Positions 29,060 to 48,278 of a stretch of DNA of 64,000 nt are shown one piece after another. The notes beneath the pieces were generated by a model, which had not been told where the DNA came from, ran no database searches, and saw nothing but the letters and a program-made list of their open reading frames with translations. The position numbers were made by a program, and so were the translations under genes. Within the stretch, counting starts at the first letter, position 1. Each line of letters starts with the position of its first letter. The stretch lies in contig NZ_JAAAKV010000001.1 of the NCBI RefSeq assembly GCF_009905725.1, positions 62,001 to 126,000 on the forward strand, written 5' to 3'. This DNA is from Emticicia sp. CRIBPO. GTDB taxonomy: Bacteria > Bacteroidota > Bacteroidia > Cytophagales > Spirosomataceae.

Positions 29060-31561
29060 ATGAAAACTCATCATTCATCATTCAATGAAAAAGAGTTATT
29101 GCATGAACTGAAACACTTTTTACCGGCACAAGCCCCGCTAAAAGATTTTATTCATCATAATTCGCTGCATGCATTTCAGCATCTTAAATTCTATGATGCT
29201 ATCAGAAATGCTTCTCAGATTTTCGGTTACAAAGTCTCTCTTTCTTTAAGAGAATACAGAGACATGTACAAAAAGAACCAGATCAATTCCATCATCCTTG
29301 AGAAGGTGATTGCCCGTCGTAAAGGGTCTCAGCACATCTCTTCCTGGATGGAAAAAATGATCAACAGGTCCTACAATACTTCCATCACCCCGAGAATCGG
29401 ATCGATCAGGTCCAACTGGAAGAAGGAATATTATATTGACATGGATCTACTGATCCACCCTATTTTATTCAGAATTCTTTGCAGCTACCTTGACCAGGGC
29501 ATTTCCATCTGGGGATTTCCGGTGATGCACAAGGGATTCCTAGCCTCGCTCCGTGAAATTGAAAAAAACAGTTACATGAGTTTTTTCAAGACAAGCCGGG
29601 CCAAACAGTTTCTGCTTCAGCCTAATGTCAGAATGACGGACCTGCTGAAGCTGGTGGTAGGCGATGAGGCTTTGTACAATCAATATCTTTTTGATCAGCA
29701 GTTTGCTCACCAGGGATGGTCAGGAATGGTTTCGGTGGTTGAGGATGCTCCTCAGACACTGTCAGACCACAGAAAAATTTCTTTACATGATCTGATCATT
29801 TTTGAGCTTCTTCTTGAAATTGACGCCCTTGATCAGAAATTCGGACCTAACTGGGCTCCGTTGAGCAACAGACTGAACCTAAAATCCATTAATATTTTCG
29901 GAGAAGTACCTTCGACAGATTTGTCTGAAGTGATTTCACTCTGGCAGGATGCTTTTGAATGGACTTATTATGACCAGGTGCTGGGCGGTATCCAGATTGA
30001 AAAGGAGGCGGCTCCTGTTCAGGATCATAAGAGTTTCCAGGCGATGTTCTGTATCGATGACCGCGAATGTTCCATCAGACGTTACCTGGAGAAAACAGAT
30101 AAGAATTGTGAAACTTTCGGCACACCGGGTTTCTTTGGTGTGGAGTTTTACTACAAACCTGAGCATGCCAATTCTTTCACAAAACAATGCCCGGCCCCGG
30201 TTACCCCGAAATTCCTGATCAAGGAAATCGGCACCCGGTCTAAAAACAAGAAAGATGTGCACTTCACCAAGCAGACCCATTCGCTGGTCAGAGGCTGGCT
30301 GATGTCACAGACCCTTGGTTTCTGGTCAGCTTTCAAACTCGTTTCGAATATTTTCAGACCAACCATGTCCGCGGCGGCGGTGTCATCTTTCCGTCACATG
30401 GACAAATATTCCAAGCTGACCATTGAGCACAAACCGAACCAGTCGCATCACCACGAACACGATCTCCAGGTTGGTTACACCGTTGATGAAATGGTTACGC
30501 GTGTGGAAGGCCTGCTCAAAAGTATTGGCCTGGTCAACCAGTTTGCTCCTATCGTATATGTGGTGGGGCATGGAGCCAGCAGCGTTAACAATACCCATTA
30601 TGCCGGTTATGATTGCGGGGCCTGTTCAGGCAGACCGGGCTCTGTAAATGCAAGGGTGGTGAGCTTTATGGCCAATCACCCGCAGGTAAGGGAAATTCTG
30701 AGAGAAAGAGGCATTGATATTCCTGATACAACCCAGTTTGTAGGGGCATTGCATGATACTACAAGAGATGAAATCGCCTTCTACGACGAGGACATCCTGT
30801 CAAAAGAAAATACAGAAAGACATAAAACAAACGATAAAATCTTCGAAAAAGCCCTTGATTATAATGCCAAGGAGCGTTCAAGGAGATTTGAATCGGTAGA
30901 CTCAAGCCTCAGTCCCGAGAAAGTCCATGAAAAGATCAGAGAAAGATCTGTCTCTCTTTTTGAGCCAAGGCCGGAGCTGAACCATGCTACCAATTCGCTT
31001 TGTATCGTAGGCAGAAGGTCTCTGTCAAAAGACCTGTTCCTGGACCGCAGGGCATTCATGAATTCTTACGACTATGAGATTGACCCTGAAGGAAAATACC
31101 TGTTTAATATCCTGAAAGCCGCCGCCCCGGTTTGTGGTGGTATCAACCTCGAATATTATTTCTCAAGGGTTGATAATCAAAAGCTTGGAGCAGGGACCAA
31201 ACTACCTCACAATGTGATGGGCTTATTTGGCGTGGCCAACGGTAACGACGGTGACCTTAGGCCCGGGCTGCCTTATCAGATGGTCGAAGTGCATGATCCG
31301 ATCAGGATGCTTTTTATAGTTGAACACTTACCGGAAGTAGTATTGGAAACCATACAGAAATTACCTGAAATGTATGAGTGGTTTATCAATGAATGGGTGA
31401 ATTTAGTGGTTGTGCATCCTAAAACCCATAAGTTATTCTTTTTTAAGGACGGAAAATTCGAGGTATACAGTCCTGTAAAACAAGACATTGAGGCCATCGA
31501 AGATCTGTTCCTGATCTTTGAATCACACCAGGAAAATCTACCGGTCAGTTTAGTAAACTAA
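29060..31561 (+). CDS. dabA: DabA-type subunit of the DAB inorganic-carbon transporter (DUF2309)
   Basis: This 833-residue protein is a DUF2309/DabA protein, a beta-carbonic-anhydrase-like cytoplasmic subunit that traps CO2 as bicarbonate when coupled to an ion-conducting membrane partner. The zinc site is intact: Cys331 and Asp333 in FCIDDRECSIRR, His504 in VVGHGASS and Cys519 in GYDCGACSGR. The spacings Cys-x-Asp and His-N14-Cys equal those reported for Halothiobacillus DabA2. dabB starts 9 bases after the stop. The order dabA-dabB is the reverse of the dabB-dabA order described for proteobacteria. Confidence 0.94.
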   Translation: MKTHHSSFNEKELLHELKHFLPAQAPLKDFIHHNSLHAFQHLKFYDAIRNASQIFGYKVSLSLREYRDMYKKNQINSIILEKVIARRKGSQHISSWMEKMINRSYNTSITPRIGSIRSNWKKEYYIDMDLLIHPILFRILCSYLDQGISIWGFPVMHKGFLASLREIEKNSYMSFFKTSRAKQFLLQPNVRMTDLLKLVVGDEALYNQYLFDQQFAHQGWSGMVSVVEDAPQTLSDHRKISLHDLIIFELLLEIDALDQKFGPNWAPLSNRLNLKSINIFGEVPSTDLSEVISLWQDAFEWTYYDQVLGGIQIEKEAAPVQDHKSFQAMFCIDDRECSIRRYLEKTDKNCETFGTPGFFGVEFYYKPEHANSFTKQCPAPVTPKFLIKEIGTRSKNKKDVHFTKQTHSLVRGWLMSQTLGFWSAFKLVSNIFRPTMSAAAVSSFRHMDKYSKLTIEHKPNQSHHHEHDLQVGYTVDEMVTRVEGLLKSIGLVNQFAPIVYVVGHGASSVNNTHYAGYDCGACSGRPGSVNARVVSFMANHPQVREILRERGIDIPDTTQFVGALHDTTRDEIAFYDEDILSKENTERHKTNDKIFEKALDYNAKERSRRFESVDSSLSPEKVHEKIRERSVSLFEPRPELNHATNSLCIVGRRSLSKDLFLDRRAFMNSYDYEIDPEGKYLFNILKAAAPVCGGINLEYYFSRVDNQKLGAGTKLPHNVMGLFGVANGNDGDLRPGLPYQMVEVHDPIRMLFIVEHLPEVVLETIQKLPEMYEWFINEWVNLVVVHPKTHKLFFFKDGKFEVYSPVKQDIEAIEDLFLIFESHQENLPVSLVN

Positions 31562-31570
31562 TTGTTACTT

Positions 31571-33439
31571 ATGAATTCTATCCTTCAAATATTTGTTTTT
31601 ATTCCTATAGCCGGCTTTTTTATCAGCCTGCTTATTCCCGGCAAAAAGGAAGGAATTCTCTCCTGGGTGGCTTTCTTTACCGTTGGTCTTCATATGGTTA
31701 GTTTCCTGGTCTTTCTGGTCTATTGGCTGACTCATGGAAGGGTCTCCCTTAACCTGAAAGAAATTGTCCTGTTTCAATCCAAAGACTATGTTTTCCTGGT
31801 TGATTTCTATTTTGATAAAATTACGGCTGTTTACCTGCTGGTAGGGTCTTTCCTTACTTTCCTGGTGACGATCTACAGCAGGTATTATTTACACCGGGAA
31901 ACAGGTTACAAGCGTTTTTTCAATACCATTCTGTTCTTCTATACGGGATACAACCTGACTATTTTTTCAGGCAATTTTGAAACCCTTTTTATCGGCTGGG
32001 AAATGCTGGGTATCTCCTCATTCCTGCTGATCGCTTTTTACCGCGACAGGTATCTTCCTGTCAAAAATGCGATCAAGGTGTTTTCAGTATACAGAATCGG
32101 TGATGTGGGGCTGATCCTCGCGATCTGGGCCAGCCACCACCTGTGGCACGAAAACATTACTTTTCTGAAGCTGAGTAATTACACCCTGGTTCATGACCAC
32201 CTTTTAAGTCACACCTTTATCGGTGCGTTTATTTCACTGATGATCCTTGTAGCAGCTGCCGCAAAATCGGCTCAGCTTCCTTTCTCGTCGTGGTTGCCGC
32301 GGGCTATGGAAGGGCCGACGCCTTCAAGTGCCATTTTTTATGGTTCCTTGTCTGTTCATATCGGTGTATTCCTTTTGCTAAGGACACACCCTTTCTGGGA
32401 CCAGCAGATTTCAGTCAGGATTCTGATCGGGATTCTCGGCCTGACAACGAGTATTATTGCCTCGCTGATTGCCAGGGTCCAGTCTTCAGTAAAGAGTCAG
32501 ATCGCTTATGCCTCTATTGCCCAGATAGGCCTGATTTTTATTGAAGTAGCGGCCGGGTTTGAAAACCTCGCTTTGCTTCACTTTGCAGGCAATGCCTTTT
32601 TAAGAACTTACCAGCTATTGGTTTCTCCTTCCATTGTGAGTTACATGATCAGGGAGCAGTTTTATAATTTTGTTCCCCGTCAACATACGATCGAAGACTC
32701 ATGGCCGAAGAAAATCGAATACTCGGTCTACCTGCTGAGTCTCAAAGAATGGAATCTTGACCTCGTGATGGACTACCTGGTTTGGAAACCGTTGAAACAA
32801 ACCGGAAGAAAACTCGATTTCCTGACCCTTCCGATCCTGTTTGCGATGTTCATCCCGATGTATCTGATCGGCTTGTTCAGTTATTTTTACCAGGATCAGC
32901 TTCCAACGCAGATCCATGCCTACCTGCCACCTTTTTTCGCCTTTATCGGGCTGATCATGGTGCTTAAGTCATTCTCAGAACGTAAAAACCCAGTGATGAG
33001 CTGGTTTCTGATCATTATGAATCATTTCTGGACTGTACTGTCGATCTCTTTCAATGATCATTTCAGCAACTACGAAATCGCCTTTTACCTGAGCGGCATT
33101 ATCGTCAGCGGTACGCTGGGGTATGTATGCCTGATGAGGCTCAAGTCAAGAGAAGATGTGATTGATCTCAACGGATTTCACGGACACTCTTTTGAGTATC
33201 CGAGACTGGCCCTGGTCTTTCTGATTGCCTGTCTGGGGCTTACGGGATTCCCGATCACCCCTACATTCATCGGAGAGGACCTGATCTTCAGCCACATCCA
33301 CGATGATCAGTTTATCCTGGTATTCTTAATTTCATCGGGGTTTATACTGAGTGGTATATCTATTATGAGGGTATATGCGAGAGTCTTTCTTGGACCCCAT
33401 ATCAAGACCTACCACGAATTACCTTACAAATCATCCTAA
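31571..33439 (+). CDS. dabB: DabB-type membrane subunit (NuoL-like) of the DAB transporter
   Basis: This 622-residue protein is hydrophobic throughout, with about 14 membrane helices, and belongs to the proton-translocating NuoL/MrpA family (MEGPTPSSAIFYGSLSVHIG corresponds to the conserved discontinuous helix). With DabA it would use a cation gradient to drive CO2 hydration. The ATG at 31571 is preferred to the TTG at 31562. It is not part of a complex I operon, since no other nuo gene is near. The SulP gene follows after 33 bases. Confidence 0.92.
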   Translation: MNSILQIFVFIPIAGFFISLLIPGKKEGILSWVAFFTVGLHMVSFLVFLVYWLTHGRVSLNLKEIVLFQSKDYVFLVDFYFDKITAVYLLVGSFLTFLVTIYSRYYLHRETGYKRFFNTILFFYTGYNLTIFSGNFETLFIGWEMLGISSFLLIAFYRDRYLPVKNAIKVFSVYRIGDVGLILAIWASHHLWHENITFLKLSNYTLVHDHLLSHTFIGAFISLMILVAAAAKSAQLPFSSWLPRAMEGPTPSSAIFYGSLSVHIGVFLLLRTHPFWDQQISVRILIGILGLTTSIIASLIARVQSSVKSQIAYASIAQIGLIFIEVAAGFENLALLHFAGNAFLRTYQLLVSPSIVSYMIREQFYNFVPRQHTIEDSWPKKIEYSVYLLSLKEWNLDLVMDYLVWKPLKQTGRKLDFLTLPILFAMFIPMYLIGLFSYFYQDQLPTQIHAYLPPFFAFIGLIMVLKSFSERKNPVMSWFLIIMNHFWTVLSISFNDHFSNYEIAFYLSGIIVSGTLGYVCLMRLKSREDVIDLNGFHGHSFEYPRLALVFLIACLGLTGFPITPTFIGEDLIFSHIHDDQFILVFLISSGFILSGISIMRVYARVFLGPHIKTYHELPYKSS

Positions 33440-33472
33440 ATATTTCTCAAAATATTAAAAATATAATTTAAA

Positions 33473-35077
33473 ATGGAAAGTACTGTTAAAAAAACCATTC
33501 CTAAAGACGGCCTTGCAGGCTTAAAAGAAAACTGGTCTACCGACATAGTTTCAGGATTTACTATCTTTTTACTCGCTTTACCCCTCAGTTTAGGTATCGC
33601 CAAAGCCTCGGACTTCCCTCCGATCATGGGATTGGTGACCGCGATCATCGGCGGGGTCGTTGTGAGTCTCTTTTCAGGGTCCAGATTGACCATAAAAGGA
33701 CCTGCAGCGGGTTTGATCGTGATTGTGGCAGGTGCGGTAAGTGAATTTGGTGGTGGAGAAACAGGCTGGCACCTGGCTCTGGGAGCTATGGTGGTGGCCG
33801 GTTTGATCCAGATCCTATTCGGGGTATTGAAACTTGGTAAACTGGCGGATTTCTTCCCACTTTCCGCCATTCACGGCATGTTGGCAGCCATTGGGCTGAT
33901 CATCATTGCCAAACAAATCCCGGTGCTGCTTGATGTAGATCCGGCCATGACCAAAGGCAAAGGCCCGCTGGCCCTGATCGGGGCCATTCCCCAGTTTATC
34001 GCTCACCTGGACCCGAGGGCTACGATCATCGGTGTGGTGAGTTTGGCGGTGATGCTGGGCTGGCCGTTTATCAAGAACCAGTTTATCAAGAAAATACCTG
34101 CTCCGCTTGTGGTTTTACTGATTGCGATCCCTGCTGAATTGTACATGGATTTTCAACATACTGAGCCTGCCTATGCCCTGGTTCACATCGGCAACCTGAT
34201 GGATAGCATCAAATGGAATGTCGATTTCAGTGGTTTTTCACAAACCGGTGTATTCATTAAATATGTGGTTATGTTTGCTTTGGTTGGTACGCTGGAGTCA
34301 CTTCTTACAGTGAAAGCGATTGACATGCTTGACCCGTACAGACGTAAATCCGATACGAATAAAGACCTTATTGCTATTGGCATCGGTAATACGCTGGCGG
34401 CCCTTCTGGGTGGTCTGCCGATGATCTCAGAAGTAGCCCGTAGTTCATCCAATGTGAACAACGGTGCCAAGACCCGTTGGGCCAACTTTTTCCATGGTGC
34501 CTTCATCCTGGTGTTTGTATTGCTGGCTTCTCACCTGATTGAGCTGATCCCGAACACGGCCTTGGCTGCGATGCTGATCACGGTGGGTATTAAACTGACG
34601 CACCCGAGAGAATTTGTTCAGACTTTCAAAATCGGTAAGGAACAATTGCTGATTTTCTTAACCACGATATTCTTTACTTTATTTGAAGACCTTCTGGTGG
34701 GTATTTTTGCCGGTATGATCCTTAAAATGATCATTCACCTGATCAACGGAACGCCTATTTCATCGTTCTTCAAGGCTCCGACTGTGGTTTCATTTACAGA
34801 CGACAAATACCTTGTTGAGATTGACAAATCTGCTGTATTTACCAATTACCTGGGAATTAAACGTAAACTTGATGCTATTCCTCCGGGATTTGATGTCACT
34901 ATTGACCTTAAAAACACAAAGCTGGTAGATCACTCAGTGATGGAAAACCTGCACCATTTTGAACATGATTATGTAGAAAGAGGTGGAAAAGTAAGCATCA
35001 TAGGGCTGGATGACCACAAGCCGGTTTCGGGTCACAAACTGTCTGCAAGAAAAAAAGCGAAGGTAGCCTTAGGGTAA
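33473..35077 (+). CDS. SulP-family anion transporter (sulfate or bicarbonate)
   Basis: This 534-residue protein has the SulP core of about 10-14 helices with FTIFLLALPLSLGIAKAS, SRLTIKGPAAGLIVI and NTLAALLGGLPMISEVARSS (shown in parts). A reduced STAS-like domain covers the last 110 residues (TIDLKNTKLVDHSVMENL). SulP proteins move sulfate, bicarbonate or other anions, often with sodium. The placement right after dabAB makes bicarbonate uptake the likeliest job, but sulfate cannot be excluded. Confidence 0.9.
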   Translation: MESTVKKTIPKDGLAGLKENWSTDIVSGFTIFLLALPLSLGIAKASDFPPIMGLVTAIIGGVVVSLFSGSRLTIKGPAAGLIVIVAGAVSEFGGGETGWHLALGAMVVAGLIQILFGVLKLGKLADFFPLSAIHGMLAAIGLIIIAKQIPVLLDVDPAMTKGKGPLALIGAIPQFIAHLDPRATIIGVVSLAVMLGWPFIKNQFIKKIPAPLVVLLIAIPAELYMDFQHTEPAYALVHIGNLMDSIKWNVDFSGFSQTGVFIKYVVMFALVGTLESLLTVKAIDMLDPYRRKSDTNKDLIAIGIGNTLAALLGGLPMISEVARSSSNVNNGAKTRWANFFHGAFILVFVLLASHLIELIPNTALAAMLITVGIKLTHPREFVQTFKIGKEQLLIFLTTIFFTLFEDLLVGIFAGMILKMIIHLINGTPISSFFKAPTVVSFTDDKYLVEIDKSAVFTNYLGIKRKLDAIPPGFDVTIDLKNTKLVDHSVMENLHHFEHDYVERGGKVSIIGLDDHKPVSGHKLSARKKAKVALG

Positions 35078-36584: not shown

Positions 36585-36713
36585 GTGCCCTTTCAAAGCT
36601 TCCGCCTTCTTCCCTTCCCGACGAGTATTTCACTCCCTGTTTCACTTCACGGTCATAAATTTGACATTATCAGGATTCTATATAAATTTTACAATAATTT
36701 TATATTTTATTAG

Positions 36714-36730
36714 TCTATAAAATTGGTAGA
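36714..36730. promoter_or_regulatory. Candidate operator site 1 (TCTA-N9-TAGA)
   Basis: TCTATAAAATTGGTAGA; the arms extend to AGTCTA and TAGACT (36712-36732), six perfect pairs. Sites with the same TCTA-N9-TAGA pattern precede the YeiH, TlpA and redoxin genes. Confidence 0.55.
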
Positions 36731-36742
36731 CTTAATAGTCTA
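36727..36742. promoter_or_regulatory. Overlapping palindrome in the same promoter
   Basis: TAGACT-TAAT-AGTCTA is a perfect 6-4-6 inverted repeat that shares its left arm with operator site 1. TAATCTTG at 36746-36753, one mismatch from the -7 consensus, follows four bases later. Confidence 0.5.
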
Positions 36743-36759
36743 TATTAATCTTGCATTAT

Positions 36760-37035
36760 CATAATCAACAAAGAAAAAACAGGTATTCATTTCCGGAAAT
36801 TAAACAGGGAATTTGTTCGGTTCCGGAAAGAACAATAAGCTAAATTTTAACCCCTGAACTATAATTCTCCCGGTTTGCTGTGATGCGTTGCAGCAAACCT
36901 GATTTCCGGCCGTGTGCCTTAATGGAAGGCATAAGTCTCATAAGCTTAGTCAGATGGTTCGAATCCATTCACGGCCTCAACTTCAGGAACCCCGGTTTCT
37001 GAACAACCCGGAAAACAAAATTTTATAACATCAAC
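36760..37035 (+). promoter_or_regulatory. Structured 5' leader of the desaturase-DUF1684 unit
   Basis: If transcription starts near 36760, the leader is about 275 bases long. It contains three hairpins and one tRNA-like fold: 36813-36835 (TTGTTC / GAACAA arms around a TTCCGGAA palindrome), 36872-36899 (GGTTTGCTG / CAGCAAACC, nine perfect pairs), the cloverleaf at 36908-36977, and 36984-37001 (CAGGAACC / GGTTTCTG). No match to a riboswitch class that I know could be made. Confidence 0.5.
36908..36977 (+). ncRNA. tRNA-like RNA with CAT anticodon and shortened D arm
   Basis: The sequence folds into a cloverleaf. The acceptor GGCCGTG (36908-36914) pairs perfectly with CACGGCC (36970-36976). The anticodon stem TAAGT/GCTTA carries loop CTCATAA with CAT at 36939-36941. 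The T arm GATGG-TTCGAAT-CCATT (36953-36969) has the exact tRNA T-loop consensus, and the variable loop is 4 bases. The D arm (36916-36930, GCCTT-AATGG-AAGGC) leaves only one base between acceptor and D stem, so the molecule is 70 bases, shorter than normal, and the discriminator is T rather than the A expected for Met. It differs in sequence from the canonical CAT tRNA at 20771-20844. It may be a degenerate or specialised tRNA or a tRNA mimic in an mRNA leader. Confidence 0.6.
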
Positions 37036-38247
37036 ATGGAATTAAATTACTTTGCCCTGGCTGTCCCGTTTTTTCTTTTCTTTATCGGATTGGAATATTA
37101 CGTGGCACAAAAAAACAAGAAGCCTTATTTTAAGTTCGACAGTTCAATCGCCAACATCAATGTGGGGATTGTGGAGAGGGTGACCGATCTTTTTACCGTT
37201 GGCTTGTTTTATTATTTTTACGATTATCTGCATCAGCATTTTGCCATTTTTGATATCAAGCCCGGTGTGCTGATGTGGGTGGCACTGGTTTTCGGAACGG
37301 ACCTGCTCTGGTATTGGTACCACAGGTTCGGACATAAAATAAACCTGTTCTGGGGTTTTCATGTGGTGCACCACCAGAGTGAAGAATTTAATTATACGGC
37401 CGGTACAAGGATAACCATTTTTCAGGCGGTGGTCAGAACGCTTTTCTGGTCGATACTTCCGATTATCGGGTTTCCGGCTCACATGATTTCCGTGATCCTG
37501 ATCATCCATGGCCTGTATCCGTTTTTTACGCATACCCAGCTGATCGGCAAACTCGGATTCCTGGAGTATTTCCTGGTGACGCCGTCACACCACAGGGTAC
37601 ACCATGCCAGCAATGAGCAGTACCTGGATAAGAATTTTGGCGATATGTTCATCATCTGGGACAAGCTCTTCGGGACGTTTGAGGAAGAAAAAGAACAGCC
37701 GGTATACGGTCTGACCAAGCAACTTGGCAGTTATAGTTTTTTATGGCAGCATTTTCATTTCCTGGTAGAGATCTGGTATGCCGCCAAGGCAGAAAAAGGG
37801 CTTTGGAATAAGCTGAAAGTGATTTTCGGAAGTCCGGAAGATTTTAACCCGGAAGTAAGGGCACAGGCTGAGAAGAGATTCCTGGCCAAAGACAAAGCCC
37901 CTGCGGGCTCGAAGAGATTCAGAAATTATGTTTTGATTCAAATCAGCTTTACCCTGATATTTCTTTTTGTCATGTTGCTGTTTGAAAGTCATTTGAGCAC
38001 ATTTTTACAGGTTTCAGCGTCATTATTCATTATTATTACCGTGATCAACTGCGGGGCCATACTGGAACAAAGAAAGTGGGTGTTCTTCCTGGAATTTGCC
38101 AGGATCAGCCTGGTACTGATCACCGGGTTTTATTATTATCCGAATATTAAACTGATAATAGTACTTTATGTAATGATCGTGGCTTTGATCTCTTATTATT
38201 CAATCATCAAGAAACAATACCTGAACCTGGTCTATGGGAAAATATAG
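37036..38247 (+). CDS. Sterol-desaturase / fatty-acid-hydroxylase superfamily membrane protein
   Basis: This 403-residue protein has several membrane helices and the eight-histidine di-iron pattern of the family: WYHRFGH, HVVHHQS and HRVHHASNEQYLDKNFG. It would use O2 to hydroxylate or desaturate a lipid. Bacteroidota members include proteins of unknown substrate. The C-terminal third contains extra helices. Its promoter carries operator-like repeats and the leader a tRNA-like fold. The protein holds only 6 Met and 1 Cys by hand count. Confidence 0.9.
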   Translation: MELNYFALAVPFFLFFIGLEYYVAQKNKKPYFKFDSSIANINVGIVERVTDLFTVGLFYYFYDYLHQHFAIFDIKPGVLMWVALVFGTDLLWYWYHRFGHKINLFWGFHVVHHQSEEFNYTAGTRITIFQAVVRTLFWSILPIIGFPAHMISVILIIHGLYPFFTHTQLIGKLGFLEYFLVTPSHHRVHHASNEQYLDKNFGDMFIIWDKLFGTFEEEKEQPVYGLTKQLGSYSFLWQHFHFLVEIWYAAKAEKGLWNKLKVIFGSPEDFNPEVRAQAEKRFLAKDKAPAGSKRFRNYVLIQISFTLIFLFVMLLFESHLSTFLQVSASLFIIITVINCGAILEQRKWVFFLEFARISLVLITGFYYYPNIKLIIVLYVMIVALISYYSIIKKQYLNLVYGKI

Positions 38248-38270
38248 CCACAGGTTAAATCAATAAACCA

Positions 38271-39158
38271 ATGAAAACTTTAAAAATTACCACCCTCACC
38301 ACCTTTCTTCTGACGGCCCTTGCTTTCAGCGGTTTCAGAAGACCGGCGGATGATTATGAGGAAGAGATAAAAACTTTTCATCAGAAAAGGATTGAGGGCC
38401 TGAAAAAAGAAAACGGCTGGCTTAACCTGGCAGGTTTGTTCTGGCTGGAAGCAGGCGAAAACACTTTCGGGTCTGACCCTTCCAATGAGCTTGTTTTTCC
38501 CAAGGGTAAAAGCGATGACTTTTTAGGCAAAGTGATCCTCAAAAATGATGAGGTGGTATTTGAAAGTCAGGCGGAGCAAAAGGTTTCGGATGAAAAGGGT
38601 TTACCGGTAAGTCAACTGAAAGTTTTTCCTTCTGAAAAACCGGTGGTGTTAAAACACAAAAGCCTTCAATGGACCATTATCAAAAGAGGCGACAAATACG
38701 GCGTAAGACTACGTGACCTGGAGAGTGAAGAATTGAAGAATTTCAAGGATATCGACACTTACCCTGTAGACCGCAAGTGGAAAGTGAAAGCCACCTTTGT
38801 TCCTTCAAACGGCAGACAAATCCCTATTCTTGATGTTCTGGGACAGACTTCGCTACAGGATTCTCCTGGGCGGCTGGTGTTTACGATCAAGGGGAAATCT
38901 TACAACCTGGACGCTGTCGGGACAACGGATGAACTTTTCATTATTTTCGGAGACAAGACGAATAAAAAAGAAACTTACGGAGCAGGCAGGTTCCTGTATT
39001 CTGCAGTCGAATCAGACGGAAGTGTTTATTTAGATTTTAATAAAGCGATTAACCCGCCGTGTGCATTTACTCCTTTTGCTACCTGTCCTTTACCACCAAA
39101 GCAGAACTTACTTGAGGTGAGCATTAATGCCGGCGAAAAAAACTATAGTTACCATTAA
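38271..39158 (+). CDS. Secreted DUF1684 protein
   Basis: This 295-residue protein has an N-terminal signal (TTLTTFLLTALAFSGF) and the DUF1684 hallmarks: ENGWLNLAGLFWLEAGENTFGSD near the N-terminus (in parts) and NPPCAFTPFATCPLPP near the C-terminus. The function of the family is unknown. Apart from the initiator it has no Met, and its only two Cys are the conserved pair. It lies 23 bases after the desaturase-like gene and is probably co-transcribed. Confidence 0.88.
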   Translation: MKTLKITTLTTFLLTALAFSGFRRPADDYEEEIKTFHQKRIEGLKKENGWLNLAGLFWLEAGENTFGSDPSNELVFPKGKSDDFLGKVILKNDEVVFESQAEQKVSDEKGLPVSQLKVFPSEKPVVLKHKSLQWTIIKRGDKYGVRLRDLESEELKNFKDIDTYPVDRKWKVKATFVPSNGRQIPILDVLGQTSLQDSPGRLVFTIKGKSYNLDAVGTTDELFIIFGDKTNKKETYGAGRFLYSAVESDGSVYLDFNKAINPPCAFTPFATCPLPPKQNLLEVSINAGEKNYSYH

Positions 39159-39220
39159 CGCCCTGTAAAAGACGATTTACTGACCTGGAAATTGACGTGA
39201 CTTTGTTTACGGCAGGGATT

Positions 39221-39238
39221 CTTTGAATCCATTCAAAG
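39221..39238. repeat. Short hairpin upstream of the Rrf2 gene
   Basis: CTTTGAA (39221-39227) and TTCAAAG (39232-39238) are perfect inverted copies around TCCA. No T tract follows, so terminator function is doubtful. Confidence 0.4.
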
Positions 39239-39256
39239 GAAACTGAAAATATATCT

Positions 39257-39271
39257 TATTGAAATTCAATA
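39257..39271. promoter_or_regulatory. Palindrome upstream of the Rrf2 gene, candidate autoregulatory site
   Basis: TATTGAAATTCAATA has seven perfect base pairs about a central A. It is flanked by ATCT (39253-39256) and AGAT (39271-39274). Position 97-111 bases upstream of the start codon fits a regulatory role. Confidence 0.4.
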
Positions 39272-39307
39272 GATTAAAGAAATTAAAGATAAAATTTTGT
39301 TGTACTC

Positions 39308-39342
39308 CTGGTTTAGTCTGGCCTGGTTTATCATTAACCAGG
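39308..39342. repeat. CCTGGTTTA direct repeat and hairpin in the Rrf2 leader
   Basis: CCTGGTTTA occurs at 39308-39316 and 39322-39330. The second copy also pairs as CCTGGTT (39322-39328) with AACCAGG (39336-39342). The element ends 25 bases before the rrf2 ATG and could be an operator or an RNA hairpin. Confidence 0.4.
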
Positions 39343-39367
39343 TCAGATATTTTAAACGATTAAAACT

Positions 39368-39796
39368 ATGATTTCAAAAAAAGCTAAATATGCACTAAAG
39401 GCCCTGAAAGTACTTGCCGAAAGGCACGGACAGGCAGAATCATCGACGGTCTCAGAAATTGCGATTCTCGAAAATATTCCAAGGAAATTCCTGGAGGCCA
39501 TTTTACTGGAGTTAAGAAACAACAGCCTTTTGACGAGTCATAAAGGCAAGAACGGAGGATATTCGTTAAAAGTTGATCCGGATAAAATTACCCTGGCAAG
39601 GGTACTAAGAATCATCGACGGGCCTATTGCTCCCACCCTTTGTGTGTCGATTTATTATTACGACAAATGTGAAGATTGCCCGGACGAAGAAACCTGTCCG
39701 ATCAGGCCTGTGATGCTGAAAGTCAGGGATGCCAACCTGCATGTGTATGAAAAAACTACCCTGCTGGATTTTATTCAGAACAAGAAAACAGATTAA
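39368..39796 (+). CDS. Rrf2-family transcriptional regulator with four-cysteine cluster
   Basis: This 142-residue regulator has the winged-helix DNA-binding domain of the Rrf2 family (SKKAKYALKALKVLAE, IPRKFLEAILLEL, SHKGKNGGYSL). Cysteines lie at 92, 101, 104 and 110 (C-x8-C-x2-C-x5-C), which could bind an Fe-S cluster or sense thiol state; IscR/NsrR use three cysteines in this area with a different spacing. The Firmicute member CymR controls cysteine metabolism. Its position inside a cluster of sulfur-related genes makes it the best candidate for binding the TCTA-N9-TAGA sites. Confidence 0.92.
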   Translation: MISKKAKYALKALKVLAERHGQAESSTVSEIAILENIPRKFLEAILLELRNNSLLTSHKGKNGGYSLKVDPDKITLARVLRIIDGPIAPTLCVSIYYYDKCEDCPDEETCPIRPVMLKVRDANLHVYEKTTLLDFIQNKKTD

Positions 39797-39800
39797 AAAT

Positions 39801-40247
39801 ATGACCAGGTATATTTTTCTTGCTTTCGCCGTCGTCTTATTAGCCGGCCATGATGGATTTTCCCAACAGAAAACCAAGCTGATTACCTGGAAGTATACCA
39901 TAGCTTCTGAGGTCGTGAACAGTGAGTCGATTGTCGACATCGTTTTTACGGCCAAAATAAGCCCGGGATGGAAATTATACGGAGCAGGTTTCAAAAGCAC
40001 CGACAATGGTCCCAGACAAATCGGTTTCCTGTCTTCTGAAAACGGGTCGTTTGAACTGGTAAAATACCCTGCCCCTGTAAACCAGCTCTGGAAAGAAGGC
40101 ATAAGTTATTTTTCAGAAAAAGCTGAATTCAAAGCTAAAATCCGGATTCTTGAACCCACTGCAGACATCTGCGGGATCATCCGCGGAAGGCTTTTTAATG
40201 AAAAGGGAGAGATTGTAGATTTTGAGAATAAATTTCAATTTTATTAA
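39801..40247 (+). CDS. Secreted DsbD-alpha-like domain protein
   Basis: This 148-residue protein starts at an ATG four bases after the Rrf2 stop; its signal peptide is FLAFAVVLLAGHDGFSQ. The mature part (TIASEVVNSESIVDIVF, ISPGWKLYG) resembles the immunoglobulin-like N-terminal domain of DsbD. It holds only one cysteine (in ADICGII), so it cannot act as a CxxC redox domain by itself. It is probably co-transcribed with the Rrf2 gene. The assignment is moderate. Confidence 0.7.
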   Translation: MTRYIFLAFAVVLLAGHDGFSQQKTKLITWKYTIASEVVNSESIVDIVFTAKISPGWKLYGAGFKSTDNGPRQIGFLSSENGSFELVKYPAPVNQLWKEGISYFSEKAEFKAKIRILEPTADICGIIRGRLFNEKGEIVDFENKFQFY

Positions 40248-40273
40248 ACAGCACTTCATCAACCAACCCAAAG

Positions 40274-40312
40274 CAGGAATGTCCGCTTGCCATGGCGGCA
40301 TCCTGTTTTTTT
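40274..40312 (+). terminator. Rho-independent terminator
   Basis: CAGG-ATG-CCGC (40274-40286 with two bulged bases) pairs with GCGG-CAT-CCTG (40295-40305), followed by seven T. It ends the Rrf2 / DsbD-alpha-like unit. Confidence 0.82.
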
Positions 40313-40338
40313 ATCTTAAAAAGCTGTAATTTAGTCAG

Positions 40339-41772
40339 ATGTTAAAAAAAGAATGTGATGCTGTTGTGATCGGGTCAGGGCCCAACGGACTTGCCGCTGC
40401 CATTACCCTGCAACAGGCAGGTTTATCTGTATTGATACTGGAATCCAGGGACAGCATAGGGGGCGGATTAAGGACCAAAGAACTTACCCTGCCTGGGTTC
40501 AGACATGATGTATGTTCGGCTATCCACCCTCTGGCTGCAGAGTCTCCTTTTTTTAAGACCTTGCCCCTGGATCAGCACGGCCTGGAATATCTTGACCCGC
40601 CTGTGTCGGCTGCCCATCCCTTTGACGGCGGTGGGGCTGCATTTTTAAGCAGATCCCTTGAAGAAACAGCCCGCTCACTGGGAGATGATGCCGGGCGATA
40701 TAAAGACCTGATTTTACCCATTCTCAAAGACTGGAAGTACCTGGCTCCTGAGATCCTCGATGAGTTACATATTCCTGACCATCCGTTTAAGCTGGCCAGA
40801 TTCGGACTGAAAGCATTGACGTCTGCTTCGTATCTGGCGGGCAGGTTTAAAACCAAAGAAGCAAGAGGTTTGTGGGCAGGTATGGCTGCTCACTCTATTT
40901 TACCCCTGGACAAACTCACGACATCGGCTATCGGCCTGGTGCTGAGCACGGTGGGTCATCACCGGGGCTGGCCGGTTCCAAAGGGTGGGTCGCAAAAAAT
41001 TGCCGATGCCCTTGCTGCTTATTTCATTTCGCTGGGTGGGGAAATTGAGACCAATTTTCATGTCAAATCCCTTTCCCAACTGCCTTCTTCCCATGCGGTT
41101 TTGTTTGATATTACGCCTAAACAGATGCTGGAAATAGCCGGGCACCGTTTCTCTTCGCTATATCAATGGCAGCTGAAAAGATACCGGTACGGACTGGGGG
41201 TTTTTAAGGTAGACTGGGCTCTGGACGGACCCGTGCCTTTCACCAACGAACACTGCAGGAATGCCGGAACCATCCACATAGGCAATACATTTGAAGAAAT
41301 CCGTGAATCAGAAAAACTGACCTGGAAGGGCGGACATCCTGAAAAACCTTTTGTTTTGCTGGCCCAGCAGAGTTTGTTTGATCAAAGCAGGGCTCCCGAA
41401 GGCAAACATGCCGTCTGGGCCTACTGTCATGTACCCAACGGCTCCACCAGGGATATGACGCAGGCAATAGAATCCCAGATAGAGCGGTTTGCCCCCGGGT
41501 TCAGGGAGAGAATCCTGGCTAAAAACGTCATGAATACCGGCCAGATGGAATCATATAATCCCAACTATGTAGGCGGTGACATCAATGGCGGGTCGTTAGA
41601 CATCACACAGCTGTTTACCAGGCCTGCCCTTCGCTGGTCGCCCTACAGGACATCAGCCAAAGGGCTTTACATCTGCTCGTCATCCACGCCTCCGGGTGGT
41701 GGTGTACATGGCATGTGCGGTTACAGGGCTGCAACAAAAGCTTTGAAGGAAGTATTTGACATCAGGAACTGA
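40339..41772 (+). CDS. Phytoene-dehydrogenase-like NAD(P)/FAD-dependent oxidoreductase
   Basis: This 477-residue flavoprotein has the Rossmann FAD motif VIGSGPNGLAAAITLQQAG at 9-27 with the acidic end LESRDS and GGG. The C-terminal FAD-binding part reads STPPGGGVHGMCGYRAA. The closest named family is phytoene desaturase / PYROXD2-like oxidoreductases (COG1233); no carotenoid genes are adjacent, so the substrate is unknown. It is monocistronic, started 27 bases after the preceding terminator. Confidence 0.9.
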   Translation: MLKKECDAVVIGSGPNGLAAAITLQQAGLSVLILESRDSIGGGLRTKELTLPGFRHDVCSAIHPLAAESPFFKTLPLDQHGLEYLDPPVSAAHPFDGGGAAFLSRSLEETARSLGDDAGRYKDLILPILKDWKYLAPEILDELHIPDHPFKLARFGLKALTSASYLAGRFKTKEARGLWAGMAAHSILPLDKLTTSAIGLVLSTVGHHRGWPVPKGGSQKIADALAAYFISLGGEIETNFHVKSLSQLPSSHAVLFDITPKQMLEIAGHRFSSLYQWQLKRYRYGLGVFKVDWALDGPVPFTNEHCRNAGTIHIGNTFEEIRESEKLTWKGGHPEKPFVLLAQQSLFDQSRAPEGKHAVWAYCHVPNGSTRDMTQAIESQIERFAPGFRERILAKNVMNTGQMESYNPNYVGGDINGGSLDITQLFTRPALRWSPYRTSAKGLYICSSSTPPGGGVHGMCGYRAATKALKEVFDIRN

Positions 41773-41879
41773 CTTCTGCGGAATGCAGCTTTAACAAAAA
41801 ATTCACCAACCAGTATCAGCCGGAATGAGTAAAAACAAGGACAAATATTTGTAAATCGTGTGAAAATGAATTTACTTTG

Positions 41880-41896
41880 TCTATAGATTAAATAGA
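41880..41896. promoter_or_regulatory. Candidate operator site 2 (TCTA-N9-TAGA)
   Basis: TCTATAGATTAAATAGA also contains the perfect palindrome TCTATAGA (41880-41887). It lies 278 bases upstream of the YeiH-family gene; TATATTAC at 41900-41907 is only a weak -7 match. Confidence 0.5.
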
Positions 41897-42057
41897 TTTT
41901 ATATTACTGGTTGATAATGTGAATATTATAGGGGTAAAAAAACCAGGTATTCCCTGACAAAGCCATGAAAAAGTGTCCATTTTATAGCCGGAACATATAA
42001 GCAGAAACCAATGAAATTTATTTAAACGGGAATAAAGAACATTACCTCTGAAAAACG

Positions 42058-42135
42058 ATAATAACATCCGTGTCCGGGCGTCGGGGAATTTTCGGTGGTT
42101 GATCATTCAACTGATGACCGGCACGGTGTTATTAT
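42058..42135 (+). promoter_or_regulatory. Long stem structure in the YeiH leader
   Basis: ATAATAACA-T-CCGTG (42058-42072) pairs with CACGG-TGTTATTAT (42122-42135), 14 pairs with one bulge. The stem continues with CCGG (42074-42077) against CCGG (42118-42121). An inner hairpin is GTTGA-TCAT-TCAAC (42098-42111). No T tract follows, so it is not a simple terminator. No known riboswitch was recognised. Confidence 0.5.
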
Positions 42136-42173
42136 TTAAACTTCTCCGGAAAATTTAACCCTTCCAATTATAT

Positions 42174-43433
42174 ATGTCAAATCAAAAAAGTAGTTTCTCA
42201 ATCACAGAAGACTGGACCGTCGTGCTGCTCGGTTTTCTGATCATCCTTATTTCTATTGTTGGTTTTATACTTCCTGTTCCTGTTTTCGGATGGGAAAATT
42301 TTTCAGAATTATCTTCCAAAGTCCTGAAACCTTCTAATCTGCTGTTTGTTTTCGGGCAGTTTGTGCTCATTTATGCCGTAGGAATTGCAGGAGTTTTTCT
42401 TACAGGCAAATCAGTTCCCTCCTTTCTCAAAGGTTTCCCGGTGGTTTACTGGCTCACTGTGCTTGCCCTTATCCTGGCCGGAAACGCCCAGGTAAAAGCC
42501 CTTAACCTGGAAGCGGTGATCTTCAGTTTAGTGATCGGCCTGGTTATCGGAAATTTCCTGGATATTCCGGACTGGCTCAGGAACTCGCTTTCGACGGAGT
42601 TATTTGTTAAAATAGGGCTGGTACTTCTGGGTACGTCTGTCATTTTTGCGGATATCCTGAAGGCCGGTTCCCTCGGACTTATCCAGGCTTTGGTGGTAGT
42701 ACTTTCAGTGTGGTATTTTGCTTTCTGGATTTCCAAAAAGTTGGGAATTGATGAAGAAATGGCCATTATGTTGTCCAGTGCCGTCTCTATCTGCGGGGTT
42801 TCTGCGGCCATCGCTACTTCGGGGGCTATCAAGGGAGACTCTAAAAAACTATCTTATGTCATCTCTTTAGTGCTGATCACAGCCATCCCGATGATGATTT
42901 TCATGCCTTACATTGCCAAATGGCTGGGTTTGTCCGAAGAAGTCACTGGAGCGTGGCTGGGCGGTACCATCGACACGACGGGAGCGGTGGTGGCTTCGGG
43001 TACACTGGTAGGAGAAACAGCCCTTAAAATCAGTACCATTGTCAAGTTTTCACAAAATGTTTTGCTGGGAGTAGCGGCTTTTGCCATCTCCATTTACTGG
43101 ACTTACACCAATAACCCACTGGCCAAAGACCAGGAAACTAAACCGACATTAAACGTCATCTGGGAACGTTTTCCGAAATTTGTCCTGGGCTTTATAGGAG
43201 CCTCCCTCCTTTTCTCTTTCATTCTTTCCTCAGAAACCATCAATGAGGTAAAAGGCAGTCTTAAAAACCTGCAGGGCTTATGGTTTGCTTTGGCATTTAC
43301 CAGTATCGGGCTGGAGACGAACTTCTCTGACCTGTTTAACAAAAACAGCAAAAAACCACTTTACGCCTTCCTGATTGCACAAGGTTTTAATATCGTTGTG
43401 ACTTTAGTAATCGCTTATTTTTTATTTAAATGA
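42174..43433 (+). CDS. YeiH-family permease (putative sulfate exporter family)
   Basis: This 419-residue membrane protein has about 10-11 helices and the family motifs LGTSVIFADILKAG, SSAVSICGVSAAIATSGAIKGD and GGTIDTTGAVVASG. The family (UPF0324/YeiH) is annotated as putative sulfate exporters, with some members linked to sulfonate metabolism; the true substrate is unknown. It has only 6 Met and 1 Cys by hand count, unusual for a membrane protein. The next gene overlaps by ATGA. Confidence 0.9.
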   Translation: MSNQKSSFSITEDWTVVLLGFLIILISIVGFILPVPVFGWENFSELSSKVLKPSNLLFVFGQFVLIYAVGIAGVFLTGKSVPSFLKGFPVVYWLTVLALILAGNAQVKALNLEAVIFSLVIGLVIGNFLDIPDWLRNSLSTELFVKIGLVLLGTSVIFADILKAGSLGLIQALVVVLSVWYFAFWISKKLGIDEEMAIMLSSAVSICGVSAAIATSGAIKGDSKKLSYVISLVLITAIPMMIFMPYIAKWLGLSEEVTGAWLGGTIDTTGAVVASGTLVGETALKISTIVKFSQNVLLGVAAFAISIYWTYTNNPLAKDQETKPTLNVIWERFPKFVLGFIGASLLFSFILSSETINEVKGSLKNLQGLWFALAFTSIGLETNFSDLFNKNSKKPLYAFLIAQGFNIVVTLVIAYFLFK

Positions 43434-44230
43434 CCCTGAGAAATCCTGCCCTGATTATATTGTTGATGCTGTTTTCTGAGCCGGCCTTATTTGCTCAGAA
43501 GCGTTATAACCATAATATTGTCTGGGGCAGGCTGGCCCTGACCGATACGCTCAGCAGCAAACTCCGCTGGGAACTGTTCATTCAGCACCGGAGGCAAAAT
43601 ACCGAAGAAAGCGACTGGAATGTCGTCAAAGCTTCCCAATTTACCAGTTACTGGCTGTGGTTTCATTACAATCTATCGCCTTCAACCAAACTCTCGGTTT
43701 CCCCGGTCGGCTATTTTAAAAGCTGGATCCTGATCGCCCACCCGACAGATATCGACAGAGACGGGATCAGGGAATTCAGATGGGCGGCCAGGCTGGACCA
43801 TGAAACCAAAGGCAAATATTTCAATGTACTCAACAGGCATAACCTTGAGTACCGGATACGGGACCTTCAGAACAACAATGTTTTTCAACCCAACTGGCGG
43901 GTGCGGTACATGATCCGGCTGGAAAAGCCGCTGAAGGCCTCCTGGATAAAGAAACCTACTAGTCTCGTCGCTTATGAAGAGGTGTTTATCCAGTTTGGCA
44001 AGGCCGTCAGAAGCAATCCTAACGTTTTTGATCAGAACAGGCTTTATCTGGGCGTAAATCACAGTTTTTCAAAGCGTATCAAGGGGAACCTGGGCTACAT
44101 CTGGGGAATTCAGCAAAGAAACTCAGGTAACGAATTCGATTTTTCCAACATTCTCTGGGGTGTGCTGACGATCTATAATGTATTCAGCCAATTCAGAGGC
44201 AATAAAAAACCTGCTGCAGATCATCATTGA
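43430..44230 (+). CDS. Outer membrane DUF2490 protein
   Basis: This 266-residue protein starts inside the YeiH stop (ATGA overlap), which implies translational coupling. It has a signal peptide ending at LFAQ and alternating beta-strand patterns ending in VFSQF, as in the DUF2490 beta-barrel family. It may provide the outer membrane path for whatever the YeiH permease handles; this is inference. It holds no Cys and 3 Met. Confidence 0.82.
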   Translation: MTLRNPALIILLMLFSEPALFAQKRYNHNIVWGRLALTDTLSSKLRWELFIQHRRQNTEESDWNVVKASQFTSYWLWFHYNLSPSTKLSVSPVGYFKSWILIAHPTDIDRDGIREFRWAARLDHETKGKYFNVLNRHNLEYRIRDLQNNNVFQPNWRVRYMIRLEKPLKASWIKKPTSLVAYEEVFIQFGKAVRSNPNVFDQNRLYLGVNHSFSKRIKGNLGYIWGIQQRNSGNEFDFSNILWGVLTIYNVFSQFRGNKKPAADHH

Positions 44231-44237
44231 AAATTTG

Positions 44238-44245
44238 TATATTTG
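44238..44245 (+). promoter_or_regulatory. -7 promoter element (TATATTTG)
   Basis: TATATTTG is an exact -7 match, 21 bases before the ATG of the SMP-30-like gene. A TTG at the usual -33 spacing is missing. Confidence 0.5.
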
Positions 44246-44266
44246 ATCAACAATATCTTATGAAAA

Positions 44267-45523
44267 ATGAAAAAAGCTTTACTTCTGACACTGATCTTTT
44301 CTTACTCCCTGTCCAATGCCCAGGGTCTGCAGGAATTATTCACCCAAAGCACAGACGCCTATAAAAAGAAAGACTTCGGATCCTTTCTTACACTTACACA
44401 AAAACTGGATAACATCAGGCCTTCCCATCCCCGGATCACCTACAACCTGGCGTCGGCTTACGCCCTGAACGGGCAAAAGGAAAAGGCCTTTGAGGTTCTG
44501 GAGAAACTGATCAGGACGAACAACCAAACAGCTTTTGAATCAGATTCTGACTTTGTTTCGCTTCAATCTGCACCAGCTTATGGGAAATTACTGCTGTTAA
44601 AAAAAGAACTTGGTCTGGAAGTGAAAAACAGTAAGCTGATCGTCAGCCTTAACATCAAAGACCTGCATCCTGAAAGTGTGCTTTTTCTGAAGAAAAGCAA
44701 TACCTGGCTGGCTTCCTCCATCAGGAAAAGGAAGATCGTCAGTTTTGATCCCAAAACAGGAAAATGTACCGACTGGCTTGCAGAAGTCGGCATTTTGTCA
44801 GTTTTTGCCCTTAAACCGGATCAGGATGAACGATATCTCTGGGTGGCTACAGCTGCGATGCCGGAGATGGAGGGTTTCAGTAAAGAACTGGAAGGACAGG
44901 CTGAAATCCTGAAAGTGGACATTTCAACCCATAAAATAGTTGAGCGGTTGAAGACCCGAGGAAGCCATGTTTTCGGGGACCTGATCGTCAGTAAAAAGGG
45001 GGAGGTTTTTATTTCAGACAGTGATCAGCCGGTCATCTACAAAATAACGGGTGGGACCGTTCAGCCCTGGCTTGACCTTAGCGGAGAAGCCTTTAACCTG
45101 CAAGGCCTGAGCTTCGACGCTGCAGAAAAGAACATATACATTTCCGACTATCTCAAAGGCATTTTGAAAATACCTGCAGATCATCCGGAATCCGGAAAAT
45201 GGATGGATTTTCCTTCAGATGCCACTAAAAAAGGCATCGACGGGCTGATTCATTACAAAAACTCTCTGATAGCCATTCACAACGGCGTTCAGCCGATCAG
45301 GATAGTCAGGTATTTTCTTGACGACAAAGGTGAGCGGATTGTCCGTGCAGAAGTGATTGATAACAACCGCAAAGAGCTGGATGAACCTGCCCTGGCATTT
45401 GCCATGAACGATATGCTGTATTATTTTGGCAATTCTCCGTGGAAAGCTTATAACAAAGACTTTAGCCTTGACAATAACAAATATGAAGCTCCGATGCTTT
45501 TCAGTTACTTACTGTCCAGGTGA
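44267..45523 (+). CDS. Secreted SMP-30/NHL-like beta-propeller protein with TPR-like N-terminus
   Basis: This 418-residue protein has a signal peptide (LLLTLIFSYSLSNAQ). Residues about 20-110 form a TPR-like helical pair (RITYNLASAYALNGQKEKAFEVLEKL in parts). Residues about 130-400 form a six-bladed propeller with FDPKTGKCTDW, GEVFISDSDQPVIYKI and IYISDYLKGILKI repeats, like SMP-30/gluconolactonase proteins. The substrate is unknown. It sits in the sulfur-related cluster with its own -7 element. Confidence 0.8.
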   Translation: MKKALLLTLIFSYSLSNAQGLQELFTQSTDAYKKKDFGSFLTLTQKLDNIRPSHPRITYNLASAYALNGQKEKAFEVLEKLIRTNNQTAFESDSDFVSLQSAPAYGKLLLLKKELGLEVKNSKLIVSLNIKDLHPESVLFLKKSNTWLASSIRKRKIVSFDPKTGKCTDWLAEVGILSVFALKPDQDERYLWVATAAMPEMEGFSKELEGQAEILKVDISTHKIVERLKTRGSHVFGDLIVSKKGEVFISDSDQPVIYKITGGTVQPWLDLSGEAFNLQGLSFDAAEKNIYISDYLKGILKIPADHPESGKWMDFPSDATKKGIDGLIHYKNSLIAIHNGVQPIRIVRYFLDDKGERIVRAEVIDNNRKELDEPALAFAMNDMLYYFGNSPWKAYNKDFSLDNNKYEAPMLFSYLLSR

Positions 45524-45578
45524 TTTACTTCCGGTAAGAAAATCACCATAAATTGTTGAAAAAAAATCACAGCAACAA

Positions 45579-46929
<1,351 letters not shown>

Positions 46930-46936
46930 AATAAGT

Positions 46937-46964: not shown

Positions 46965-46968
46965 AAAT

Positions 46969-46976: not shown

Positions 46977-46993
46977 CTGCAAAAAACACCTCT

Positions 46994-48268: not shown

Positions 48269-48278
48269 CTTATTTGTT

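Follow-up and report, generated by a model that had tools for sequence, protein, structure and literature searches.

The window (the 64 000-nucleotide stretch of DNA analysed here) contains, at 36908–36977 on the plus strand, one member of a small family of pseudo-tRNAs. The family is conserved, covaries in its cloverleaf, lies in one set of genes and carries only Met or Cys anticodons at the 13 places where it occurs, while features that ordinary tRNAs keep have been eroded. The explanation that we prefer, with a probability of roughly 40%, is that these RNAs, perhaps derived from tRNA-Cys, are co-transcribed with sulfur operons and act through MetRS or CysRS outside ordinary decoding. In this role, they may constitute a novel signal of sulfur starvation.

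The 70 bases are called tRNA-Met(cat) by ARAGORN and score 47.6 bits with the Rfam tRNA model RF00005 (gathering score 29), and their predicted fold is a cloverleaf of -24.5 kcal/mol (z = -3.01; 1 of 200 shuffles equals or beats it) that is retained within the folded leader. All three agree with the 70-base cloverleaf with a Met (CAT) anticodon described in the first-pass annotation. Its structural details can also be read directly in the sequence: a 7-bp acceptor (GGCCGTG/CACGGCC), the anticodon loop CTCATAA (anticodon at 36939–36941) on a stem TAAGT/GCTTA closed by T-G, a 4-base variable loop (GTCA), a T arm GATGG-TTCGAAT-CCATT and a T as discriminator (36977). The single base said to separate the acceptor from the D arm is T8 if the D stem has 5 bp, but the predicted fold pairs T8 as well, giving 6 bp. 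Similarly, the distance of 130 bases to the next gene is correct only from the first base of the element; from its last base to the start codon at 37036 there are 58. No Rfam T-box match is present in the window at gathering thresholds. ARAGORN lists 35 distinct sequences in the window genome, this element included. Three are ordinary CAT tRNAs (L015, L017, L021), one of them initiator-like with the anticodon stem TTGGG/CCCAA, and the element makes a fourth; there is one ordinary tRNA-Cys.

Upstream of the hydroxylase operon, and of the element, a pattern search finds the operator-like inverted repeat GTCTA-N9-TAGAC at 36713–36731, in line with the operator repeats noted earlier. By eye, a second, overlapping repeat, TAGACTTAATAGTCTA, lies at 36727–36742, and a possible -7 promoter box, TAATCTTG, can be read on the plus strand at 36746–36753, with one mismatch to TAnnTTTG, which we take to be the consensus. 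A plus-strand hairpin, GGTTTGCTG...CAGCAAACC, seen in the sequence and in the leader fold, lies directly 5′ of the element (36872–36899); some other family members also have hairpins shortly upstream, with sequences unlike this one (by eye). Another predicted hairpin, TTCAGGAACCCCGGTTTCTGAA, lies between the element and the start codon (36982–37003, plus strand). Because the GTCTA-N9-TAGAC pattern has 14 sites in the window genome against 9 for a reversed-pattern control, the repeat alone is weak evidence, and it is the intergenic placement that carries the case. Four of the 14 sites fall in the window, all intergenic: the one before the hydroxylase gene and those at 41879–41897, 48251–48269 and 49650–49668, before a YeiH-family transporter gene (42174–43433; Pfam PF03601 above cut-off, TIGR00698 below it), a redoxin/TlpA-like gene (48309–49529) and an AhpC/TSA-like gene (49727–50371), respectively. 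A like repeat is found 83–99 bases 5′ of the element in four Emticicia-group genomes, in one of them with its last base outside the first pattern; none was found in the flanking DNA examined for G056, L168, G200, G004, Leadbetterella, CS3-21 and B1. Elsewhere in the window genome, an operator-like repeat lies 64 bases 3′ of an ordinary tRNA-Gln gene and 5′ of another gene (G000:C35:149073, L165).

DNA similarity is too blunt for finding the family. Across 99 genomes, such a search recovered nothing beyond the window except one weak hit (G012, E 0.0015), which covers the downstream hairpin in a region that by eye resembles coding DNA. A repeated or mobile element was also considered and dropped: within the genome, the best other match to the 500-base intergenic region (E 0.058) is not convincing as a second copy, and the region matches nothing among plasmids and phages. 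The hydroxylase homologue of Emticicia C21 (G035), which is 72% identical, has a tRNA-Met-like element at the same place, with compensatory differences, and a covariance model (R1) was built from these two elements. When run on 222 genomes of the family, R1 finds 11 places at 56–99 bits, with the next at 47 or less among the matches listed; two of these background matches (L090, L091) are ordinary tRNA-Cys. A second model (R2), built from the 11 places and run with lax filters on 34 genomes, returns the same 11 at 73–93 bits and nothing else above 45; no genome yields more than one main-type copy. Of the background matches, the 18 that were fetched (L134–L151) are all ordinary tRNAs (seven tRNA-Cys, six tRNA-Arg and five tRNA-Phe).

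A pattern scan of named genomes adds two places, in Emticicia sp. EMPMRC01 (L168, 73.1 bits) and Bacteroidetes B1 (L192, 79.2 bits), for a total of 13 places and 12 distinct sequences at 73–93 bits, all in Lacihabitans and Emticicia relatives. Other hosts include Emticicia C21, E. agri (G187), Emticicia 21SJ11W-3 (G191), Lacihabitans soyangensis (G003), Lacihabitans CCS-44 (G004), Lacihabitans CS3-21 (G005), a Leadbetterella MAG (G002) and a Cytophagales MAG (G200). The pattern required an AAC end and thus could not detect copies like that in the window. Its 38 loci (L166–L203) comprise ten main-type members, 14 tRNA-Gln(CTG), one tRNA-Arg, one called tRNA-Ile and 12 that are apparently due to chance. 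The tRNA-Gln(CTG) loci belong to Salinivirgaceae, unnamed Bacteroidetes and Mucilaginibacter; in Salinivirgaceae and Mucilaginibacter, these tRNAs have the acceptor TGTCGTG/CACGACA or TTTCGTG/CACGAAA.

Wider scans argue against a broad distribution in Bacteroidota, as do the pattern loci other than members, which are ordinary tRNAs or apparent chance. Across the order (390 genomes), five known members are recovered, and the matches at 46–55 bits are background, with 25 of 25 that were fetched (L109–L133) being an ordinary tRNA-Cys at the matched place. Across the phylum (395 genomes, E<=1e-10), no member is found beyond the window genome. The order and phylum scans both score 12 candidates per genome, so that divergent members may be missed. 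One genome of the order has three tRNA-Cys(GCA) genes within 725 bases (L125:848-1572), two of them short at 71 bases. In the open-access literature, judged by title and the start of the abstract, with subscription papers and preprints outside the scope, we found no description of such an element in Bacteroidota.

The first-pass annotation had proposed a covariance search for homologues with compensatory changes, and the 13 places provide them. In the first 11 sequences, of which 10 are distinct, pairing holds in 92.7% of cells, and two-sided changes affect 14 of the 22 pairs, a result reached by none of 500 shuffles; as a control, sliding the partners by 1–3 columns leaves 37–51% of cells paired. 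Taking all 12 distinct sequences adds two places that were outside the R2 build and worsens the D-arm alignment; 87.9% of cells then pair, with two-sided change again in 14 of 22 pairs (0 of 500 shuffles), and the count of pair types is unexceptional (137 of 500 shuffles). Conservation of the surrounding DNA provides a further comparison. Among three Emticicia hydroxylase leaders, the element is 88–95% identical, the next 80 bases 40–65% (45% between the window and Emticicia C21), the 90 bases 5′ of the element 63–79%, and the mostly coding DNA further on 75–80%. Between L. soyangensis and Lacihabitans CCS-44, the values are 92% for the element, 86% for the next 80 bases, 74% for the preceding 90 and 73% for further DNA. 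The three closest Lacihabitans-type pairs show a small contrast (element 99–100%, rest 82–96%). The element is thus under selection as a structure. An isolated decayed tRNA, the outcome that the earlier reading had allowed for as a lone copy in one strain, is ruled out by this covariance family, whose members are conserved in other genomes with compensatory changes.

Of the 13 main-type elements, 11 have the anticodon CAT (Met) and two have GCA (Cys; G056 and G200). The anticodon loops have exactly seven bases and share T33 and A37-A38 with ordinary tRNA-Met and tRNA-Cys; the T arm is conserved across the family. Other tRNA features are not kept to the same degree. Counting the window copy among the 12 distinct elements, U8 is present in 5, compared with 34 of 34 ordinary tRNAs in the window genome, and positions 1-72 are paired in 3, with G.A in the other 9, compared with 33 of 34. 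Eleven of the 12 have A as the discriminator, and the window copy has U. Three of the 11 main-type relatives reach the Rfam tRNA gathering score (38.4, 37.7 and 29.9), and for the remaining eight Rfam lists no tRNA at E<=1. ARAGORN is more lenient, accepting 7 of the 11 members found first. The elements therefore have a cloverleaf and an anticodon, lie off the tRNA consensus and are conserved, which is what we mean by a pseudo-tRNA; the window copy departs least from the consensus, with the highest Rfam score listed.

Two roles as ordinary tRNAs can be set aside. An initiator tRNA has as its hallmark three G-C pairs at 29-31/39-41 of the anticodon stem, and none of the 12 elements has them. 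Replacement of tRNA-Cys is also rejected, as the ordinary tRNA-Cys pattern matches once in each of 12 genomes. Ordinary CAT tRNAs are likewise present alongside the element in the window genome, the only one so checked. The Met assignment made earlier thus holds for the window and for 11 of 13 places, but it is not specific: GCA is found in two of the 13 and in a second type of element.

The second type has a D arm nearer that of ordinary tRNA-Cys and a different acceptor stem. In G010 (L047:205-276), it occupies the leader of an AhpC-like/hydroxylase operon and has the loop ATGCAAA (GCA, by eye); in the Cytophagales MAG (L264:1024-1094), it lies in the same operon leader with a damaged loop, TCGAAAA. 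Both have an A.G mismatch at 1-72 (by eye).

Several comparisons suggest Cys ancestry as a possible to likely, though not proven, origin of the element. Relative to the ordinary tRNAs of the window genome, the nearest to the window copy and to the G056 copy is tRNA-Cys (25.0 versus 16.5 and 25.5 versus 12.5, respectively). In pairwise alignment, five of the 13 entries score highest with tRNA-Cys, the window and both GCA copies among them; seven, representing six distinct sequences, do so with tRNA-Arg and one with tRNA-Phe. By mean score, tRNA-Cys comes first, barely (13.6 versus 13.1 for tRNA-Arg). That every fetched next-best match in the order scan was tRNA-Cys points the same way, though the model contains GCA members. 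A tRNA-Gln ancestry, hinted at by the common CACGACAAC end, was dropped, as the scan pattern itself had selected that end.

Decayed copies give a view of the family over time. In Emticicia sp. EMPMRC01 (L168, 1-4304, minus strand), an intact CAT copy lies 3′ of a decayed copy that aligns to the G056 GCA element with a score of 25 (maximum of 17 in 1000 plain shuffles) and has the anticodon ACA. Because a decayed GCA-like copy stands beside an intact CAT copy, a swap between the Cys and Met forms seems to have taken place at one locus. Two sister genomes have remnants, clear in G194 (L208:317-404; 32.0 versus 18.0) and weak in G188 (L211:443-528; 19.5 versus 17.5); both are 3′ pieces located where an Rrf2 gene, or what is left of one, ends, and they suggest that the element is dispensable.

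The gene 3′ of the window element (37036–38247, plus strand), labelled ‘desaturase-like’ in the first-pass annotation, belongs to the fatty-acid hydroxylase superfamily (FA_hydroxylase, Pfam PF04116, E 7.9e-28). It is followed on the same strand by a DUF1684 gene (38271–39158; Pfam), whose homologue is immediately 3′ of the element in three relatives, and by an Rrf2-family regulator (39368–39796; Pfam Rrf2, and NCBIfam rrf2_super above cut-off), a candidate for acting at the operators; the best equivalog of the latter is CymR, far under its cut-off (67.4/195 bits). Further plus-strand genes encode MetY, an O-acetylhomoserine aminocarboxypropyltransferase (45640–46929; TIGR01326, 650.7 bits, cut-off 495.1), a member of the methionine aminotransferase family (46994–48154; NF006569, 591.8 bits, cut-off 420) and an aldo/keto reductase (51083–51958). 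We infer that this cluster is a sulfur regulon, and a tRNA-like element with a Met anticodon in an apparent sulfur regulon, as first proposed, is what the window holds. Just upstream of the cluster, consecutive genes encode DabA, a proton-antiporter-like protein and a SulP-family transporter (29060–35077); this is probably an inorganic-carbon uptake module and need not be part of the sulfur regulon.

Elsewhere in the family, the element keeps to the same gene set while its neighbour changes. The next gene is a fatty-acid hydroxylase in four cases, DUF1684 in three, Rrf2 in two, MetY in one (G192) and the aldo/keto reductase in one (the GCA element of G056); of the other two elements, one precedes a membrane dipeptidase gene, after a TonB receptor, and one follows Rrf2 at a contig end. 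Twelve of the 13 adjoin a homologue of a gene from 36908–52000 of the window, and the 13th (the dipeptidase case, in the Cytophagales MAG) has redoxin-like and orf172 homologues 3–7 kb away. By eye, the gene 5′ of the DUF1684 and Rrf2 elements resembles the terminal part of a TonB receptor, with the receptor of the Cytophagales MAG alone checked. The Rrf2 protein adjoining the two Lacihabitans elements is only 30% identical to that of the window.

These arrangements bear on the earlier placement of the element in an mRNA leader, which does not carry over to the family in general. Only 5 of the 13 main-type elements (four hydroxylase, one MetY) have an operator-like repeat 5′ and the first gene 3′; the other eight lie between genes or before an apparent own promoter of the neighbour (by eye). 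The identity of the next gene varies, as does its distance from the element, and the spacer shows poor conservation. A Met-sensing leader riboswitch therefore fits poorly in general. A riboswitch of the hydroxylase gene in particular is rejected, since most hydroxylase loci are without the element: among 27 further loci (with 1500 bases of flank), a tRNA is called only in the two with a known element, and the other 25 have no R2 match except one short chance piece. Of 20 upstream stretches, 19 are without the element, and the 20th holds the second-type copy of the Cytophagales MAG, with its damaged anticodon loop.

In the reading that we prefer, the element would perhaps have begun as a copy of tRNA-Cys that then kept or gained a GCA (Cys) or CAU (Met) anticodon. 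It would be made when a sulfur operon is transcribed, presumably in dependence on sulfur and under an Rrf2-type regulator, and be released by processing or exposed as a cloverleaf, which MetRS or CysRS could bind via the anticodon. With U8 and the 1-72 pair lost, most copies would be poor decoders; as a ligand or competitor of the synthetase, the RNA could lower the use of scarce Met or Cys or report their charging, in trans. According to PMC9976931, CAU on a tRNA-Val body suffices for charging by E. coli MetRS, and a CAU pseudo-tRNA should thus engage MetRS. The same source gives U73 as a main CysRS determinant; as the GCA copies have A73, binding with poor charging can be argued for them, and their engagement of CysRS is doubtful. 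A bolder version, which we consider doubtful as a whole, is a sulfur-starvation RNA that rations Met and Cys in the proteome: it would imitate the Cys or Met tRNA and either keep MetRS or CysRS occupied or carry a different residue into the ribosome, with lineages having swapped the two versions.

An effect in trans is favoured because the neighbour, the spacing and the spacer vary while the cloverleaf and anticodon stay. The rival in cis is an operator on the model of the E. coli thrS leader: with MetRS or CysRS bound to the mRNA cloverleaf, the next gene would not be translated until uncharged tRNA competes for the synthetase and relieves the block. It would account for the element being on the strand of the neighbouring genes in 13 of 13 cases, for the cloverleaf surviving in the window leader fold and for anticodon loops like those of ordinary Met and Cys tRNAs. 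In L189 and L200, where the element ends ~10 bases 5′ of the Rrf2 start codon, a cis effect is easy to imagine. At both of these loci, a hairpin and T run also end a few bases 5′ of the element (by eye), so that its transcription may occur only through terminator read-through. However, fixed genes and a conserved platform would be expected of a cis device, and the family instead has six different next genes and spacers of about 10 to >150 bases, and each genome has a single main-type copy instead of a copy for every operon. In G056 and L168, what looks like the operator and promoter of the next gene itself even lies 3′ of the element (by eye). We thus regard the cis operator as unlikely. A specialised decoding tRNA, used under sulfur limitation as an extra Met or Cys elongator or, more boldly, to place a sulfur-free residue at Met or Cys codons, is only slightly easier to accept. 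The tRNA-like loops, the conserved T arm and the ARAGORN calls speak for it, and the window copy, with U8, a paired 1-72 and its 47.6 bits, could still decode; the loss of U8 in 7 and of the 1-72 pair in 9 of 12 distinct sequences and the absence of an Rfam tRNA listing for eight relatives speak against it, and sulfur-free cargo is at odds with a CAU anticodon, which normally specifies charging by MetRS.

The two remaining alternatives give the anticodon no role or the element no function. As a processing signal, the cloverleaf would be a cut site for RNase P or RNase Z that separates the genes of an operon, with a meaningless anticodon. Several members do lie between genes, and the invariant pairs are in the lower acceptor stem and T arm, the usual contacts of RNase P. 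Pure processing would need neither exact 7-base loops nor anticodons confined to Met and Cys in 13 elements, which makes this explanation improbable. Recent tRNA copies in functionless decay are less probable still, to the point of being hard to credit: the patchy distribution (a match clearly exceeding background in 11 of the 222 genomes of the family), the remnants in two sister genomes and the decayed L168 copy would be as expected, but compensatory changes, better conservation than the surrounding DNA where pairs are more distant, and the confinement of six or seven arrangements to one gene set would not.

To our knowledge, tRNA-like regulators outside translation are rare and scattered. 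In the translational operator of E. coli thrS, an mRNA structure that imitates tRNA, mainly its anticodon arms, binds the aminoacyl-tRNA synthetase and regulates the synthetase's own gene. The present family shares with it a tRNA mimic for a synthetase and differs in having a full cloverleaf beside several sulfur genes; the constant position before one regulated gene, a trait of the thrS type, is absent. The met leader of S. aureus is reportedly a T-box riboswitch that ties tRNA state to genes of sulfur amino-acid synthesis; a T-box binds a tRNA, whereas the present element is itself tRNA-shaped. The nearest known thing that we found, as far as descriptions can be compared, is tRNAOther of Bacillus cereus, also a tRNA-like RNA with a real anticodon. 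PMC3399842 describes it as having a Trp anticodon, poorly aminoacylated, absent from polysomes and a piece of a longer iron-regulated transcript, with a CymR homologue among the genes changed on its deletion. By that account, tRNAOther differs in phylum, in its Trp anticodon, in its iron/Fur control and in flanking a pathogenicity island. Recurrence in one metabolic gene set and a switch between two related amino acids are found in the present family and are not reported for tRNAOther in that account. The family is thus set apart by its hosts, its Met/Cys-only anticodons and its repeated residence in one gene set. In PMC5424206, tRNA-Cys genes occur beside SepCysS and sulfur genes as part of RNA-dependent Cys synthesis; a tRNA-Cys gene among sulfur metabolism genes is the common point, and most copies here have a Met anticodon.

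What is unusual about this small family is that one metabolic gene set harbours it at six or seven places, with anticodons for only the two amino acids that the set supplies. If the link holds, it would provide a direct route from sulfur supply to aminoacylation, distinct both from T-boxes and from transcription attenuation. Several hosts are named strains (for example, Emticicia agri and Lacihabitans soyangensis), and the idea is therefore testable. A further caution is that annotation software can list such RNAs as extra tRNA-Met or tRNA-Cys genes, which is what happened with ARAGORN in this case.
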